From positions 2,007,501 through 2,071,500 of the forward strand of contig NZ_CP020100.1 in the NCBI RefSeq assembly GCF_002056295.1: a stretch of 64,000 nucleotides of DNA, written 5' to 3'. Source of the stretch: Halopseudomonas phragmitis (GTDB lineage Bacteria > Pseudomonadota > Gammaproteobacteria > Pseudomonadales > Pseudomonadaceae). Positions 28,345 to 63,947 of the stretch are shown here, piece by piece. The notes under the pieces were generated by a model that made no database searches, had not been told where the DNA came from, and was given only the letters and a program-made list of their open reading frames with translations. The position numbers and the translations under genes were made by a program. How positions within the stretch are numbered: position 1 is the first letter of the stretch; each line of letters starts with the position of its first letter.

Positions 28345-28478
28345 GGAACCGCTGAAAAAACGTAGGCGAGGCAGGCAAGACAAGGCAAAAACAGCCGAAA
28401 AAGCGCAGTTTACATAGTGTAAATGAGCATTTTGAGGCTGTTTTTAACGCCGTATTGCCAACGCAGGTAGTTTTTCAG
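28345..28478 (+). repeat. Palindromic dispersed repeat, copy 1
   Basis: This roughly 134-bp element runs from GGAACC to TTTTTCAG. The outer ends are inverted (CTGAAAAA versus TTTTTCAG); an inner stem pairs AAAAACAGCC with GGCTGTTTTT, and the tip pairs TTTACA with TGTAAA. Two more copies lie at 34711-34843 and 48113-48254. It carries no open reading frame of its own, so it looks like a MITE- or REP-like non-autonomous element. Its right end reaches into the DUF2788 gene and gives that gene its stop codon. Confidence 0.85.
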
Positions 28479-28672
28479 CCGATAACGGCAATAACCACTT
28501 CTTTGATCACAAAGGCGGCTACGCCCAGGCCCAGGGCAAAGAACAGCACCATGGTGCCGTAACGTCCAGCCTTGGACTGCTTGGCCAGATCCCAGACGAT
28601 AAACCCCATGAAGGCTACCAGGCCGAAGATCATCACGGGCATGGCGATGGCTTCAAACTGTTCGTAATCCAA
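28475..28672 (-). CDS. DUF2788 family small membrane protein
   Basis: The 65-aa protein (MDYEQFEAIAMPVMIFGLVA start, WDLAKQSKAGRYGTMVLFFALGLGV centre) has two membrane helices and matches DUF2788. Function is unknown. Its last coding bases read GTTATCGGC followed by TGA, and that TGA lies in the terminal CTGAAAAAC of repeat copy 1, so the present C-terminus (VIG) may have been set by the repeat insertion. Confidence 0.85.
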   Translation of the reverse strand: MDYEQFEAIAMPVMIFGLVAFMGFIVWDLAKQSKAGRYGTMVLFFALGLGVAAFVIKEVVIAVIG

Positions 28673-33549: not shown

Positions 33550-34569
33550 ATGGACAACACCAGTCAGATCATCGAACGCAGTGCCGAGCTGTTTGCCGGC
33601 AAGCGGGTGTTGCTGGTCAATCCGCAGGCTGACGGTCTGACCGCCAGCCTGGAAGCTGACTGGCAGGTCTGGACCTGGGATTATGCCGCTTGGCTGGGGC
33701 TCAAGGGGCGCCTGGATGAGGCCTGCTTAAGCTTTAGTCATCTATGTCCAGAGGTCGGACAGCTCGACGCTGCCATTTTGGTTATGCCCAAGGCTATTGA
33801 GCGCGCGGAGTACGCTCTTGCCCAGATCGCTCCGTTGCTGGCTTCCGGTCAGCCGCTGTATCTGGTTGGGGAGAAAAAGGGCGGAGTCAGCCGTGCGGAT
33901 AAACTGCTTGGCCAGTTTGGCAGCCAACCGGAAAAGCTCGACTCAGCCCGGCACTGCCAGCTCTGGCGGGTGCAGCTGGACGCACCGGCGGCGCCCTTTG
34001 CTCTGGCCGACTGGCAGCAGTCGTTCACGGTCGAGCTGGCGGACCAGCAGATTGAGCTGCTGAGCCTGCCCGGTGTGTTCAGTCACGGTCGGCTGGACGA
34101 GGGCAGTGAATTGCTGCTGGAGGAGCCCGCCCCGTTGCCGGTCGGTAAGGTGCTGGATTTTGGCTGCGGCAGTGGTGTGCTGTCGATCGCCCTGGCGCGG
34201 CGCAACCCTGAGTGCCGGTTTGAACTGGTAGATACCGATGCCCTGGCCCTGTACTGCGCCGCTCAGAGTTTGGCGCGCAACGGCGTCGAGGCCGAGGTAT
34301 ACCCCTCCGATGGGCTCAGTGAGGTGCACGGGCGCTATCATGCAGTGATCAGCAATCCGCCGTTCCATACCGGGATCCGTCAGGATACCGGGATTGCCGA
34401 GCGCTTCTTCAATCAGGTGACCCGCCATCTGCTGCCTGGCGGTGAGCTGCGCATCGTTGCCAATGGCTTTTTGCGTTATCCTCCGCAGATCGAGTCGCAT
34501 ATTGGCCCGTGCCGGGTGTTGCGCGAGAACAGCCGCTTCAAAGTGTATTCTGCTGTGGCGCCGGGTTGA
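33550..34569 (+). CDS. rsmC: 16S rRNA (guanine1207-N2)-methyltransferase
   Basis: The 339-aa protein has the two-domain RsmC/RlmG layout: a degenerate N-terminal methyltransferase-like half and a catalytic C-terminal half with SAM motif LDFGCGSGVLSIALARRNP and the amino-methylation motif NPPFHTG. RsmC modifies G1207 of 16S rRNA; RlmG cannot be ruled out by motif alone, though length favours RsmC. The ATG is preceded by AGGAG. Downstream lies the manganese riboswitch leader. Confidence 0.88.
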   Translation: MDNTSQIIERSAELFAGKRVLLVNPQADGLTASLEADWQVWTWDYAAWLGLKGRLDEACLSFSHLCPEVGQLDAAILVMPKAIERAEYALAQIAPLLASGQPLYLVGEKKGGVSRADKLLGQFGSQPEKLDSARHCQLWRVQLDAPAAPFALADWQQSFTVELADQQIELLSLPGVFSHGRLDEGSELLLEEPAPLPVGKVLDFGCGSGVLSIALARRNPECRFELVDTDALALYCAAQSLARNGVEAEVYPSDGLSEVHGRYHAVISNPPFHTGIRQDTGIAERFFNQVTRHLLPGGELRIVANGFLRYPPQIESHIGPCRVLRENSRFKVYSAVAPG

Positions 34570-34610
34570 GCCCAGTTGCAGCTACTGCAATGACTTGCTA
34601 AAGTTGCGCC

Positions 34611-34930
34611 CGTCTTAGGGGAGTAGTCTCTCTCATGAGGCAGGTGTCAACATAATTGATCCGCAGATCATGGCACCTGCGACCCGCCGTCACCGCGTGT
34701 GACTGGGTAGCTCTGAAAACGTAGGCGAGGCAGCCACAGCAAGGAAAAAACAGGCGAAAAAGCGCAGTTTACAGACTGTAAATGAGCATTTTGAGCCTGT
34801 TTTTAACGCCGCTGAGGCAACGCAGGTAGTTTTCAGAGGTTCCCAGGGGTTTGACGAGACCTTTGACACATGACCACCAGCCGAGGGCGGGGGTAGTCGT
34901 GTGTCAATGGAATCGTAACCCCGCCCTCTC
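34611..34930 (+). promoter_or_regulatory. yybP-ykoY type manganese riboswitch, split by a repeat
   Basis: The 5' half has the family signature GGGGAGTAG (34618-34626), a short P2 (CTC/GAG) and a P3 arm, GCAGGT-GTCAACATAATTGATC paired with GATCATGG-CACCTGC. P4 pairs GTCAC with GTGAC near 34690. The 3' signature CGAGACCTTTG is at 34855-34865, and P1 can pair GTC..AGG (34612-34619) with CCT..GAC (34860-34867). The GGGGAGUAG and AGACCUUUG elements are known hallmarks of the Mn2+ riboswitch, and the downstream gene is a UPF0016 Mn exporter type, a known target. Repeat copy 2 (34711-34843) lies between P4 and the 3' strand. Whether ligand sensing survives is unknown. Confidence 0.75.
34711..34843 (+). 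repeat. Palindromic dispersed repeat, copy 2 (inside the riboswitch)
   Basis: This copy runs from CTCTGAAAAC to GTTTTCAGAGGTTCC and keeps the family structure: AAAAACAGGC pairs with GCCTGTTTTT, and the tip TTTACAG with CTGTAAA. Relative to copy 1, one stem base pair is flipped (C-G to G-C), so pairing is maintained. The orientation is the same as copy 1. It interrupts the predicted manganese riboswitch. Confidence 0.85.
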
Positions 34931-34940
34931 TGGAAATTCC

Positions 34941-35510
34941 GTGGAAGCCTTCTTCGTTTCAACCGGTATTGTCACGCTGGCAGAGATCGGCGACAAAACC
35001 CAACTGCTGGCGCTGCTGCTGGCTGCCCGTTTTCGTCGGCCCTGGCCGATTGTCTGGGGCATTCTGATTGCCACTGTTCTCAACCACGCACTGGCCGGCG
35101 CCGTTGGCCAATGGGTCAGCGTGTTGCTGAGTGACTTCTGGCTGCACTTGATCCTGGCTGTGAGTTTCATCGCCGTGGCTGGCTGGACCCTGATTCCTGA
35201 TAAGCTCGATGACGAAGATACCCCGCCGATCAGTCGCTATGGCGCGTTCATGGCAACCCTGGTGGCGTTCTTTCTGGCCGAAATGGGTGACAAGACCCAG
35301 GTGGCTACTGTGGTGCTGGCGGCGCAGTTCGATGCCTATGTCTGGGTGGTGCTGGGTACCACGCTGGGCATGCTGCTGGCTAACGTGCCGGTAGTATTCA
35401 TGGGTAATGTGATGGCCGGGCGCCTGCCGTTCAAGCTGATTCGGATCGTTGCAGCCAGCGCCTTCCTGGTGATGGGCCTGTATGCTGGCTGGCTGGCATT
35501 CAGCGGTTAG
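34941..35510 (+). CDS. UPF0016 (GDT1/MneA-type) manganese/cation exporter
   Basis: The 189-aa, six-helix membrane protein has the two family signatures EIGDKTQLLALLLAARF (Glu15) and EMGDKTQVATVVLAAQF (Glu114), which form the ion path in UPF0016 exporters of Mn2+ or Ca2+/Mn2+. GTG 34941 starts directly at the conserved N-terminus and has TGGA six bases upstream; longer in-frame starts would fall in the riboswitch. Control by Mn2+ through the leader is expected from family knowledge. Confidence 0.92.
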   Translation: MEAFFVSTGIVTLAEIGDKTQLLALLLAARFRRPWPIVWGILIATVLNHALAGAVGQWVSVLLSDFWLHLILAVSFIAVAGWTLIPDKLDDEDTPPISRYGAFMATLVAFFLAEMGDKTQVATVVLAAQFDAYVWVVLGTTLGMLLANVPVVFMGNVMAGRLPFKLIRIVAASAFLVMGLYAGWLAFSG

Positions 35511-48112: not shown

Positions 48113-48254
48113 GGAACATCTGAAAAACTACCTGCGTTGGCCATACTGCGTTAAAAATGGCCTCAAGATGCTCATTTACAGCACGTAAACTGCGCTCTTT
48201 CGGCTATTTTTGCCTTGTCTTGCCTGCCTCGGCTACGTTTTTCAAAGATTCCTT
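48113..48254 (-). repeat. Palindromic dispersed repeat, copy 3 (opposite orientation)
   Basis: About 140 bp between the divergent M48 protease and chemoreceptor genes. Read on the minus strand it gives AAGGAATC, then TTGAAAAACGTAGCCGAGGCAG at one end and AGTTTTTCAGATGTTCC at the other, matching copies 1 and 2. It is the most diverged copy: the tip stem is TTTAC/GTAAA and one pair of the inner stem is mismatched. It separates both genes from whatever promoter lies beyond it. Confidence 0.8.
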
Positions 48255-54475: not shown

Positions 54476-57198
<2,723 letters not shown>

Positions 57199-57199
<1 letters not shown>

Positions 57200-57591
57200 T
57201 GGAATGGATTGCCGCCATTACCGCCGGCATCATGGCCGCGCTGGGCGTGTGGATGATGCTGGACCGCCACTTGATGCGAGTGGTACTGGGTATTGCCGTG
57301 CTGGGCAATGCGATCAATCTCGGGGTATTGACTACCGGACGTTTCGCCGGTGAGCGGGCGGCCTTCGTGTTCGGCAACGAGGTGGTAACCGATGCGGCCA
57401 ACCCGCTGCCCCAGGCACTGGTGTTGACCGCGATTGTCATTGGCTTTGCGCTGTTTGTATTCGCTCTTGCGGTGCTCAAGCGGACCCATGAACTGCATGG
57501 GGACAAGGATACCGACAAGGTCAGTGCGTCTACCGAGCAGCCGGCTCCAGACCATAACGAGGATCACCATGAGCCGGAGGGCCGGGCATGA
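57199..57591 (+). CDS. mrpC: Mrp antiporter subunit C, operon 1
   Basis: The 130-aa NuoK-like subunit has three helices (IMAALGVWMMLDRHLMRVVL, then PLPQALVLTAIVIGFALFVF) and a longer charged tail (DKDTDKVSASTEQ...) than the second copy. The ATG shares a base with the mrpA stop (TGATG). The PLPQALVLTAIVIGFA signature is identical in the second operon. Confidence 0.95.
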
Positions 57592-59081
57592 TGAATATCT
57601 TGTTGGTCCTGCCGGTGGTCATTCCGTTGACCACGTTGTTGCTGGGCCTGTTGGTCAAGCGCCACCACGCCTGGGTGTCGTTCATCAGCCTGGCCGGCAG
57701 CCTGGCACTGTTGGCGGCCGGGGTCTGGCTGGTGATGCTGGCTGCCCAGGGCGTGGTGCTTAGCGGTCAGATGGCCAACTGGGCGGCGCCCTATGGCATC
57801 AGTCTGGTGATTGACCGGCTGTCTGCGGTGATGGTGGCGATTACCGGGGTGATTGGTCTGGCAACCCTGGTATATGCCCATCGCCAGCCTATGCCGGCCG
57901 ATTTTCTGCGCGATGTGCACCTGTTTGTTCAGGGCCTGCTGGCCGGTATCTGTGGAGCCTTCATCACCGCTGACGTGTTCAACCTGTATGTCTGGTTTGA
58001 GGTGCTGTTGATCGGCTCGTTTGCCCTGATTGCGCTGGGCGGTGGTGAGCGTCGGCTGGCTGGGGCCATGACTTATCTGGTGCTGAACATGCTGGCGACC
58101 CTGATGTTCCTGCTGGCGGCCGGTCTTGTCTATGGCTCCACGGGAACGCTAAACATGGGCGAACTGGCGCTGATCTTCCGTGCCGATCAGGCCACTTCCG
58201 GAGCCTGGCTGGGTGTCATGCTAATGCTGATGTCGTTCGCGGTGAAGGCGGCGCTGTTCCCGTTGTTTGGCTGGCTACCGGCCAGTTACCACGTGGCCTG
58301 GACCCCTGTGTCGGCGCTGTTCGCTGGGTTGCTGACCAAAGTTGGGGTGTATGCCCTGATCCGGATGGTGACCTTGCTCTGGCCTGAGCCGGGGATGGTG
58401 CATACGGTACTTCTGTGGGTGGCCTGCGCGACCATGATCATCGGGGTGCTGGGGGCGGCGGCGCAGACCGAGGTACGGCGGATTCTGTCGTTCCATATCG
58501 TCAGCCAGGTCGGCTACATGGTACTGGGGCTGGCGCTGGCGACGCCGCTGGCTCTGGCTGGCGCAGTGTTCTATCTGATTCATCATATTGTAGTGAAGGC
58601 CAACCTGTTCTTCGTCGGTGGCGTGGCCGCGCGGCTGACCGGTTCGGAGCGTTTGGCAGCGATGGGCGGGTTGTATGCCAGCAAGCCACTGCTGGCGGTG
58701 CTGTTTGCGATTCCGGCGCTGTCGCTGGCCGGGATTCCGCCGCTGTCCGGTTTCTGGGCCAAGTTCGTGCTGGTCAAGGCCAGTCTCGATGCAGGGGTTT
58801 GGATCGCGACGTTCTTCGCCCTGCTCACTGGGATCTTTACCCTGCTGTCGATGAGCAAAATTTGGAACGAAAGCTTCCTCAAAGCTCACCCGCAGCCCGA
58901 ACAACTGGGTGTTGCCGGTGATGGGCCGAGGGGGGCCTGGCTGACCATGATCGTGCTGGCAGCGATTACTGTGCTGATCGGCTTTGGCGCTGGGCCGGTG
59001 ATGGAGTATGCGGTGGCCTCGGCCGAGCAACTGGTCGAGGCGCCAGCCTATCTGCAACTGATCGAACGGGGAGGTGAGTGA
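57588..59081 (+). CDS. mrpD: Mrp antiporter subunit D, operon 1
   Basis: The 497-aa NuoM/N-like subunit has about 14 helices. The conserved Glu is in YVWFEVLLIGSFALIAL and the channel Lys in MSFAVKAALFPLFGWLPASY. Both residues are needed for antiport in studied Mrp systems. It overlaps mrpC by four bases and mrpE by four bases. Confidence 0.95.
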   Translation: MMNILLVLPVVIPLTTLLLGLLVKRHHAWVSFISLAGSLALLAAGVWLVMLAAQGVVLSGQMANWAAPYGISLVIDRLSAVMVAITGVIGLATLVYAHRQPMPADFLRDVHLFVQGLLAGICGAFITADVFNLYVWFEVLLIGSFALIALGGGERRLAGAMTYLVLNMLATLMFLLAAGLVYGSTGTLNMGELALIFRADQATSGAWLGVMLMLMSFAVKAALFPLFGWLPASYHVAWTPVSALFAGLLTKVGVYALIRMVTLLWPEPGMVHTVLLWVACATMIIGVLGAAAQTEVRRILSFHIVSQVGYMVLGLALATPLALAGAVFYLIHHIVVKANLFFVGGVAARLTGSERLAAMGGLYASKPLLAVLFAIPALSLAGIPPLSGFWAKFVLVKASLDAGVWIATFFALLTGIFTLLSMSKIWNESFLKAHPQPEQLGVAGDGPRGAWLTMIVLAAITVLIGFGAGPVMEYAVASAEQLVEAPAYLQLIERGGE

Positions 59082-60819: not shown

Positions 60820-63621
60820 ATGACCTTGGCGCTAATCGTCTTGCTTCCCTTGTTGGGAACCCTGTTGCCGTTGCTGACCGACCGCTATGGGCGCTCACTG
60901 TGCGCTCTGGCAACCATGGTCGCGCCGGTGCTTGGTCTGATCCTGATGTGGCGTCATGTGCCGGCGGTATTCGCCGGTGAGGCGGTAGTTCAGACACTGC
61001 CGTGGATCGAACGGCTTGGGCTGAACCTGAGCTTTCGGCTTGATGGCCTGGGCTTTCTGTTTGCCCTGCTGATCCAGGGGATCGGCATTCTGGTCATTCT
61101 GTATGCCCGCTATTACCTGTCGAAGAAGGACCCCATGGGGCGCTTCTTCTCCTATCTGCTGCTGTTCATGGCCGCCATGCTTGGCGTCGTGCTGAGCGAA
61201 AACCTGCTGCTGATGATGTTCTTCTGGGAGCTGACCAGTCTGTCGTCGTTCCTGCTGATTGGTTACTGGTCACACTCCAGCGACGCCCGCAAGGGCGCGC
61301 GTATGGCGCTGGCGGTGACTGGTGGGGGTGGCCTGGCGTTGTTGGCCGGGGTTTTGCTGCTGGGGCATATCGTTGGTAGTTATGAGTTGAGTGCGGTGCT
61401 GGCGGCGGGTGAGCAGATCCGTGCCCATGCGCTATATCCGGTGGTGCTGGTGCTGGTGCTGCTTGGGGTGTTCACCAAGTCGGCGCAGTTCCCGTTCCAC
61501 TTCTGGCTGCCGCATGCGATGGCGGCGCCGACCCCAGTGTCGGCCTATCTGCACTCGGCCACCATGGTCAAGGCCGGGGTTTTCCTGCTGGCACGGCTGT
61601 ATCCGGCGCTGGCCGAAACTGATCTGTGGTTCTGGCTGGTCAGTCTGACGGGTATGGCCACTCTGTTGTTGGGCGCGGTAACCGCGCTGTTCAAGCATGA
61701 CCTTAAAGGCCTGCTGGCTTACTCGACCATCAGCCATCTGGGGCTGATTACCCTGCTGTTTGGTCTGGATACCCAGTTGGCGGCAGTGGCAGCGGTATTC
61801 CATATCATCAACCACGCGACCTTCAAGGCGTCGTTGTTCATGGCCGCAGGGATCATCGACCATGAAACCGGTACCCGTGACATGCGCCGGATCAACGGCT
61901 TGTGGTCCTATATGCCGCACACGGCGACCCTGGCGATGGTCGCTGCGGCGTCGATGGCCGGTGTGCCCTTGCTTAACGGCTTCCTGTCCAAGGAAATGTT
62001 CTTTACCGAAACCCTGCAGCAGCACCAGTTCGGCAACTTCAGTTGGGTGATTCCGCTGGTGGCGACCCTGGCCGGGGTGTTCTCGGTGGCCTATTCACTG
62101 CGTTTTATCCACGACGTGTTCTTCAACGGCAAGCCGGTCAACTTGCCCAAGTATCCGCCACATGAACCGCCGCGCTACATGAAGGTGCCGGTGGAAATCC
62201 TGGTGGCCTTGTGTCTGCTGGTCGGGTTGTTGCCGGCCTTTACCGTAGCCAGCCTGCTCGAGGTGGCGGCCAGCGCCACAGTGGGGGGCGACCTGCCCGA
62301 GTACAGTCTGGCGATCTGGCATGGCTTCAACCTGCCGCTGATTATGAGCTTTGTGGCCCTGCTGGTAGGGGTGCTGGTTTACGCCAAGCGCAAACCGCTG
62401 TTTGACTGGTACGCTGATTCGCGCTTTGAAAGCCTGGATGCCAAGCTGGTGTTCGAGCGCCTGGTCCAGAGTGCGGTTCGGCGCTGCGGTCAGTTTACGC
62501 TGCGTCTGGAGAATGCATCGTTGCAGCGCTATCTGGCCTGTATGCTGATTGCCGCGCTGGTGGTCAGTGGCTACTGGCTGGTGCAACTGCCGGCCCTGCG
62601 CGGGGCGCTGGCCCTGGCTCCGATAGACGGTGTAACCCTGGTCGGCACTTTGATTCTGATGATCTCGGCCCTGGCCACGGTGTACTGGCATCGTCAGCGC
62701 CTGGTCGCGCTGGTGATGCTCAGCGTGGTGGGCCTGATGGTGGCGCTGGCTTTCGCTCGCTTCTCGGCCCCGGATTTGGCGTTGACCCAGTTGTCGGTCG
62801 AGGTGGTGACCATTGTCCTGCTGATGCTCGCGCTGTTCTTCCTGCCGCGCCTGACCCCGGCCGAGTCGAGCAAGCTGCGGCGGGGCCGCGATATCGCTCT
62901 GGCGTTGCTGGCCGGCTCGCTGGTGACGATTCTGGCGTTGGCAGTAATGACCCGTCCGTATGACAGCATCGCTGGTTATTTCCTGGCCAACAGTGTCTCG
63001 GGCGGTGGCGGCACCAACGTGGTCAACGTGATTTTGGTCGACTTCCGCGGTTTCGATACCCTGGGTGAAGTCACTGTGCTAGCGATTGCCGGGGTGGCGA
63101 TCTATGCCCTGATTGATGGTCTGCGCCTGCGTATTCCACAAACCGATGCACTGGGGCGGGTCTGGGCTCGCGATGCCCACCCACTGATGCTGGTCAACTT
63201 GTCGCGGGTGATCCTGCCGCTGGCGCTGATGGTCTCGGCGTACATCTTCCTGCGTGGTCACAACCTGCCAGGTGGCGGTTTCATTGCCGGTCTGATCACG
63301 GCTGTGGCGCTGATCCTGCAATACGTGGGCAGCGGTGAGCAGTGGACCAGTGAGCGCTGGGGTGTGAACTATCACCATATGGCGGGCTGGGGGGTAATCA
63401 TCGCCGGGGCTACCGGTCTGGTCAGTTGGTTGTTCGGTTATCCGTTCCTGACCAGCGCCTTCGATCACTTCCATATTCCGCTGGTGGGTGAGGTCGAGCT
63501 GGCCAGTGCGCTGGTCTTCGATCTGGGGGTTTATCTGACCGTGGTGGGCGCCACCTTGCTGATTCTGGCCAACCTGGGCAAGTTGTCCACGGGCCGGGCC
63601 GTGACTGGGGAGAATCTCTGA
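60820..63621 (+). CDS. mrpA: Mrp Na+/H+ antiporter subunit A (fused A-B type), operon 2
   Basis: The 933-aa paralog of the first mrpA keeps [38 protein letters not shown] and the fused MrpB part [19 protein letters not shown]. Its length equals that of the P. aeruginosa ShaA as I recall it, so this operon may be the ancestral one. The N-terminus [19 protein letters not shown] differs clearly from copy 1, so the duplication is old or one operon was acquired. Confidence 0.95.
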
Positions 63622-63947
63622 TGGAGCTGCTGTTTGCCCTGACCCTGGGGCTGTTGACCGCCTGCGGCGTATATCTGCTGTTGCGGGCCCGGACCTTTCC
63701 GGTTGTGGTGGGCCTTACCCTGATCGGCTACGCCGTCAACCTGTTCCTGTTCGCCATGGGCCGCTTGAACACCGGGATGCCGGCGGTGATCGGCCGGGCC
63801 GAGAATTATGCCGACCCTTTGCCCCAGGCACTGGTGCTGACTGCGATCGTGATCGGTTTCGCCATGACTGCCTTTGCTCTGGTGCTGGCGCTACGGGCCC
63901 AGGGCGAACTGGACAGTGATCACGTTGATGGGAAGGGGGATCGTTGA
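63621..63947 (+). CDS. mrpC: Mrp antiporter subunit C, operon 2
   Basis: The 108-aa NuoK-like subunit (LTACGVYLLLRARTFPVVVG; PLPQALVLTAIVIGFAMTAF) is shorter at the C-terminus than copy 1. Its start overlaps the mrpA2 stop by one base. Confidence 0.95.
   Translation: MELLFALTLGLLTACGVYLLLRARTFPVVVGLTLIGYAVNLFLFAMGRLNTGMPAVIGRAENYADPLPQALVLTAIVIGFAMTAFALVLALRAQGELDSDHVDGKGDR

Follow-up and report, generated by a model that had tools for sequence, protein, structure and literature searches.

Can a metal-sensing riboswitch keep working after a mobile palindrome has landed inside its aptamer? The question is raised by the leader of an exporter gene in a 64,000-nt stretch of the Halopseudomonas phragmitis genome (the window, in whose positions coordinates are given unless a locus or contig is named). 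The first-pass annotation had described this leader as a Mn2+ riboswitch interrupted by a mobile-looking repeat, which might either be tolerated as a long stem at the aptamer junction or lock the switch. We consider it likely that this is a true Mn2+ riboswitch with an IS5-type MITE nested in its P4 arm, the four-way junction being kept, the aptamer probably functional and the set point perhaps shifted.

The riboswitch and its gene

A methyltransferase gene (33550-34569; MTS and MTS_N domains), presumably rsmC-like, precedes the leader (34606-34940), and a gene for a GDT1/UPF0016 divalent cation antiporter (34941-35510, + strand, GTG start) follows it. The antiporter assignment comes from a PF01169 match (E 1.2e-42) to the open reading frame listed from TTG 34851, which crosses the riboswitch; comparison with relatives places the conserved start at GTG 34941. 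Within the genus of the window, the GDT1 gene was found in 35 of 37 genomes and an RF00080 match in the same 35, the other two being without both. The match in the window (34606-34698, + strand; 51.4 bits, E 1.1e-12) is above the gathering score of 45, and no other match in the 4.04-Mb genome reaches E <= 0.001. The two conserved strands, GGGGAGTAG at 34618-34626 and CGAGACCTTTG at 34855-34865, are both present as the first-pass annotation had claimed, the 3' L1/P1 strand extending over 34855-34867.

The aptamer as enlarged by the insert spans 34606-34870 (+ strand), as delimited by RF00080 and by alignment of its 3' strand to relatives. Helix names follow PMC6754395, in which P1.1 denotes the distal switch helix. 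The 5' strand of this helix (34612-34619) has its partner at 34860-34867 and is supported by covariation in 37 insert-free relatives, with 99.1% of cells paired. It is followed on the + strand by the 5' half of L1 (34620-34625) and the 5' strand of P1.2 (34626-34628), with mostly invariant columns; by P2 (34630-34639), a short hairpin in H. phragmitis according to the constrained fold; and by P3 (34640-34680) with L3 (34650-34656), defined by covariation in relatives and by comparison with Pseudomonas sp. WN033 (G018), which has the same insert at the identical place. The 3' strand of P1.2, the 3' half of L1 and the 3' strand of P1.1 occupy 34853-34867 (+ strand), and both L1/P1.2 segments show 0 differences from WN033. 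Across the 37 insert-free relatives, 98.0% of cells of the aptamer fold were paired and both sides had changed at 14 of 29 pairs, a covariation reached by 0 of 500 shuffles. When the flanks of the window insert were joined, 39 of 40 invariant columns were matched, both L1 strands and the L3 strand included (40 of 40 for WN033). The lone mismatched column is one side of the pair 34645-34675 in P3, still paired as U-A in the window; this pair is U.G in WN033, and C-G in 34 and U.G in three of the 37 insert-free relatives. The orthologous leaders of relatives without the repeat, a comparison that had been proposed at the outset, do have both conserved strands. Judged by its sequence, the leader holds a true Mn2+ (yybP-ykoY) riboswitch of a GDT1-type exporter gene. 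It has in common with RF00080 the L1/L3 core strands, the predicted P1.1/P1.2/P2/P3/P4 layout and the site before a metal exporter gene; unlike RF00080, its P4 bears a mobile element of about 138 bp, so that the aptamer measures about 260 nt as against 106-144 nt in aligned insert-free relatives.

Profile scores were rejected as a test of the leader with and without its insert. The RF00080 score is a weak test of this kind because the model draws mainly on the 5' part of the aptamer, and the 51.4 bits of the insert allele fall within the 44.2-61 bits of insert-free members of the same genus. A custom model gave 70.4 bits for the insert allele and 104.8-134.2 bits for 18 of the 19 insert-free loci kept out of the model (53.0 for the remaining one), a drop due to the failure of cmsearch to bridge the insert.

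Downstream of the junction, two hairpins on the + strand make up the putative expression platform, with pairing counts taken over 37 sequences that include the window and WN033. Hairpin A (34860-34910), a rival of the aptamer for the 3' strand of P1.1, has 91.2% of cells paired and both sides changed at 11 of 17 pairs, with 0 of 500 shuffles as high. Hairpin B (GAGGGCGGG:CCCGCCCUC, 34883-34928), just 5' of the ribosome-binding region, is less well supported than hairpin A: 89.4% of cells are paired and both sides have changed at five of ten pairs, a count reached in 13 of 500 shuffles, and the number of its further pair types does not stand out from shuffled controls (164 of 500). The two hairpins are mutually exclusive unless pseudoknotted. 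Work on L. lactis (PMC11087558) is the basis for expecting Mn2+-on regulation.

The palindromic element

The insert is a MITE-like palindromic element at 34706-34843 (+ strand), defined by an alignment of 24 copies, by terminal-repeat matches and by a core motif present in 28 copies. The alignment gives the element ends as GGAACCTCTGAAAA(A)... ...(T)TTTTCAGAGGTTCC; in the riboswitch copy they are good to 1 nt, one terminal base having been lost or changed. The repeat had at first been given as 133 bp (34711-34843); its existence was confirmed, and its size was revised to about 138 bp. It does recur twice in the window, as had been noted, with both further copies between open reading frames of at least 150 aa: one at 28345-28479 (+ strand; ends approximate; repeat search 28357-28474, direct, 88%) and an inverted one at 48120-48242 (- strand; repeat search about 48124-48241, 81%). 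The whole genome contains 32 palindrome matches (E 2e-71 to 9e-4). Terminal repeats of the CCTCTGAAAAA type were matched 42 times in the genome at <=2 mismatches and 0 times in the reversed control. Identical 4-nt flanks were found in five of 22 other copies, where re-paired flanks predict 1.19, and flanks matching in at least three of four nt in 12 of 22 (5.24 expected); the riboswitch copy itself is degenerate. There are 28 occurrences of the interior core GCGSARTTTACN{4,5}GTAAANGAGCA in this genome, 23 in WN033 and one in G002, with counts of 16, 33, 8, 6 and 11 in G043, G096, G097, G099 and G159, and the reversed control gave 0 matches across all eight genomes. Searched as a letter string, the core motif gave no match in published papers.

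A relationship to known elements is indicated by the account of MITEPsy1 and ISPsy2 (IS5 family) of P. syringae in PMC3189936. By eye, the window element shares CTCTGAAAAA-type terminal repeats with these elements, and the 4-nt CTAG/YTAA target duplication of MITEPsy1 is like the duplications at copies of the window element. MITEPsy1 is a MITE listed there as 'IS5?', with demonstrated transposition. The two elements differ in length (about 138 bp as against 100), and the GCGCAGTTTAC...GTAAATGAGCA core may be the window element's own. No terminal-repeat pair at IS spacing, as expected of an autonomous partner, was found among the 42 terminal-repeat matches in this genome. One perfect terminal repeat (G000:C1:1762250-1762266, in L356) stands alone in the match list, near an open reading frame that we take to be leuA-like; no transposase was seen among the open reading frames around it.

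Other copies of the element were considered as possible insertions into known RNAs, and this was rejected: at gathering thresholds, 0 of 28 copy loci had an Rfam match over the copy. Three pairs of orthologous copies in this genome and WN033 (L036/L342, L037/L345 and L050/L331) vary in the presence or absence of a GC-rich module of about 15 bp, which suggests exchange among copies. Elsewhere in the window, 54976-57736 and 61041-63887 contain several direct repeats (189, 112 and 78 nt) whose spacing is nearly constant at 6356-6413 bases, which suggests two similar sets of genes in tandem.

Placement in P4, folding and age

Where in the aptamer does the element sit? In the core-enforced minimum-energy fold, the basal 5' strand of P4 (GACCC, 34681-34685) pairs with GGGUU at 34847-34851, right of the insert; the corresponding helix of relatives is 93% paired, with both sides changed at three of five pairs. 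The original P4 hairpin (34689-34703; GUCAC/GUGAC) is kept as a side branch of P4, and the element is closed through its 10-bp terminal stem and a clamp of UGGG (34704-34707) with CCCA (34842-34845), all on the + strand. The mean pair probability of this clamp is 0.88 in the aptamer-only fold and 0.00 in the free whole leader. The proposal of a long stem tolerated at the aptamer junction was upheld in one half: tolerance through self-folding is probable, but the placement shifts from the junction into P4. A fifth junction helix beside a left-closed P4 was rejected since, within the bound-state fold, it reaches -101.74 kcal/mol as against -106.37 kcal/mol for the nested P4, that is, 4.6 kcal/mol worse. 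Four Pseudomonas leaders (L092, L147, L123 and L270) have a P4 of 63-84 nt that is seemingly naturally forked and resembles the layout proposed here. The four-way junction of P1.1/P1.2, P2, P3 and P4 is supported by covariation in relatives and by the constrained fold, and is absent from the free whole-leader fold.

The insertion point was read against the insert-free leader L013, which runs ...GTGACTGGGTTTGGCGAGACC; in the window, CTGG(G) is followed by the element and then by CAGGGGTTTGACGAGACC. On this comparison, CAGG at 34844-34847 (+ strand; CAAG in WN033) is probably a degenerate target-site duplication of CTGG at 34703-34706, the simplest reading being that CTGG was duplicated inside the 3' strand of P4 and has since degenerated. 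An IS5-type MITE would then have entered the P4 arm before the split of H. phragmitis and Pseudomonas sp. WN033, cutting the 3' strand at a CTGG-like site, and the target-site duplication would have left the strand in two copies that flank the element. Of these, the right one (GGGUU) would still pair with GACCC, the old 5' strand, with the result that P4 and the four-way junction would persist. The inverted repeats of the element, together with the UGGG:CCCA clamp to the left copy, would fold it into a long lateral arm at a distance from the L1-L3 metal site. With this arm clear of the metal site and P4 kept, the aptamer is probably still functional, and Mn2+-dependent expression is predicted to be retained. 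The structure proposed for the insert-bearing aptamer combines thermodynamics with covariation in insert-free relatives; the energies are equilibrium values from models that take no account of Mn2+, of the tertiary contact between L1 and L3 or of the order of transcription.

Within the aptamer, the cost of the bound core was calculated to be 2.98 kcal/mol for the native sequence and 1.46 or 1.38 kcal/mol after joining of the flanks. Dinucleotide-shuffled inserts gave a mean of 7.08 (sd 2.09) kcal/mol, and only one of 200 was as low as the native insert. For WN033, the cost was 4.25 kcal/mol as against 7.78 for shuffled inserts (one of 60 as low), and 6.67 when its 128-nt terminal-repeat hairpin was removed with the clamp strands kept. 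Seven insert-free loci ranged from 1.12 to 7.41 kcal/mol, and two loci with shortened inserts gave 1.45 and 1.25. P1.1 is not favoured in the ligand-free model of the aptamer alone (probability 0.03).

The whole leader allows a different outcome, in which the switch is re-tuned or locked: the right terminal-repeat arm UUUUCAGAG would base-pair to CUCUGGAAA (34928-34936), which is the ribosome-binding region, and the spare P4 strand would favour the ligand-free state, leaving the exporter gene low or in need of more Mn2+. The unconstrained minimum-energy fold does place the right arm of the insert on the ribosome-binding region, and its left arm on the gene start; the terminal stem of the insert has a probability of 0.00 in the free whole leader, and forcing it costs 1.1-3.3 kcal/mol. 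The whole-leader core cost rises from 6.90 kcal/mol in the joined window to 14.08 with the insert, and amounts to 12.69 in WN033. The set point may therefore have moved. The value of 14.08, however, lies inside the 5.37-18.01 kcal/mol of 16 insert-free relatives, four of which exceed it. Moreover, the insert stem comes first in transcription and by itself has a stable fold (-51.4 kcal/mol). Between the two species the core strands are unchanged and 1 of 70 platform positions differs, unlike in a dead switch. A re-tuned or locked switch seems unlikely, though with a real chance of being right.

Could the switch instead be broken, and too young to have decayed? The core would then be kept merely for lack of time, and the gene would be constitutive or expressed from elsewhere. 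Of the 30 element loci in this genome, seven, with the riboswitch copy among them, have an orthologous element locus in WN033, which makes the riboswitch copy one of the older ones. Its insert has diverged by 2.7% between the two species (over 34705-34850; 3 of 140 positions within 34705-34844), indicating limited non-coding decay; this lies within the 1.4-3.8% of the six other shared copies, and special conservation of the insert was rejected on the same grounds. Against a broken switch, 72 of 530 third codon positions differ between the window and WN033, compared with 0 of 34 positions in the L1/P1.1/P1.2 strands, and the sole difference in P3, at 34675, keeps its pair (U-A versus U.G). A related element also occurs in the P3 of four species of another genus, with P3 closable. 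We regard a young broken switch as highly improbable. An assembly or annotation artefact is hardly credible, having nothing in its favour beyond the multicopy nature of the repeat, and against it a single-contig genome and the identically placed insert of WN033, whose genome was assembled separately.

Inserts in other riboswitches and their meaning

The favoured reading, a MITE absorbed by the P4 arm, gains a wider setting from other Mn2+ riboswitches. The survey covered 218 Pseudomonadales RF00080 loci (197 distinct leaders), the window itself being outside this number. Since they mix relatives, one genus of 25 genomes, the top matches among the 150 rows listed from a 248-genome family search and deliberately chosen low scorers (30 of 39 matches), they give no unbiased insertion rate. 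Large inserts were found in seven of the 218 loci and represent four events, one in P2, one in P3 (apparently later trimmed) and two in P4; in the other 211 a script located both strands at normal distances, the unparsed L278 and the mis-parsed L285 being read by eye. Both core strands are kept in all seven, although the loci were found via the core and core insertions could escape. A partial control on this point is the genus of the window, where the 35 genomes with a GDT1 gene are also those with an RF00080 match. The P4 insertion of the window and WN033 is the first event. The second is a different element of about 220 nt in the P2 loop of G002, seen at one of 357 loci; the insert there (L062 270-489) is a 220-bp palindrome with GGGAAGCACTGATTAATTC ends. 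The third event lies in the apical loop of P3 in four species of another genus, where P3 is still able to close; P3 measures 162 nt in G043 and G096, and is shorter in G097 (85 nt) and G099 (73 nt), against a median of 24. On our reading of the sequences, a single insertion common to the four would have been followed by shortening. The riboswitch that took up this insert adjoins a downstream Na_Ca_ex gene in the insert-free locus L161 of that genus; this locus (1641-2735) is a second Mn2+ riboswitch copy ahead of a Na_Ca_ex (PF01699) exchanger gene. The fourth event extends the P4 arm of G159 to 177 nt, the median being 45. Three of the four events have the core motif of the palindrome superfamily in common.

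The cost of the bound core with the native insert and with the insert cut out is 9.62 and 9.62 kcal/mol for the P2 event, 0.86 and 0.86 and 0.91 and 0.92 for the P3 event, and 8.07 versus 7.57 for the P4 arm of G159. Shuffled inserts were as low as the native one in 15 of 60 cases for the P2 event, 0 and 1 of 60 for the P3 event and 24 of 60 for G159, so that only in the P4 event of the window and WN033 and in the P3 event does the palindrome clearly insulate. Among 75 further named GDT1 loci, 45 were parsed and 30 unparsed ones were left out. Four outliers among the further loci were inspected by eye. The P2 of L108 is long, L092 and L147 have the forked P4 mentioned above, and L109 is ordinary. 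L108 was left uncounted as an insertion, its P2 of 93-98 nt being without a clear palindrome. Candidate inserts in L148, L243, L184, L255, L279, L238, L096, L112, L285, L278 and L109 proved on inspection to be parse artefacts.

The suggestion of the first-pass annotation that this leader is a natural test of insertion tolerance is strengthened by the independent P2, P3 and P4 inserts of other species. An insertion scan of the riboswitch seems to be under way in nature, a few of the related loci having other insertions of this sort in their side arms. Enrichment of palindromes in riboswitches is not claimed, chance insertion followed by survival being possible on a rough estimate. A bolder proposal, which we consider quite unlikely, is that the element is now a working part of the switch: the duplication would provide a spare P4 strand, the right terminal repeat an arm against the ribosome-binding site and the element a second off state, with side arms of Mn2+ riboswitches as recurrent landing sites of one palindrome superfamily.

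Precedents come from other structured RNAs and leaders. Rickettsia palindromic elements lie inside tmRNA and RNase P RNA, possibly neutrally according to PMC2229807. As in the window, a mobile palindrome resides in a conserved structured RNA; those hosts are a tmRNA and a ribozyme, whereas the host here is a ligand-switching aptamer, and the elements differ. In the pneumococcal trp leader (PMC3049150), a BOX element lies between two T boxes, and the leader is judged still functional. It is likewise a repeat-borne palindrome in a riboswitch-type leader, but it sits between two complete T boxes and the window element within an aptamer arm. The mobile attenuators of PMC2965389 are transposon-borne hairpins in 5' leaders, like the window element; they make new attenuators upstream of genes, whereas the window element extends an existing aptamer arm. 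The searches, which covered open-licence PMC papers and for the most part their listings, brought up no account of an aptamer with a mobile element in one of its arms.

The MITE in the P4 arm of this Mn2+ riboswitch is real, old and apparently tolerated. For crystallography (PMC6754395), terminal loops of variable regions of the Mn2+ aptamer were swapped for tetraloops. In nature, arms of this kind have been lengthened. Four independent insertions in P2, P3 and P4, one of them shortened in two species, are ready-made alleles, with which one may gauge the amount of extra RNA that a four-way-junction riboswitch can absorb, and ask whether target-site duplication can rescue a helix at the moment of insertion.
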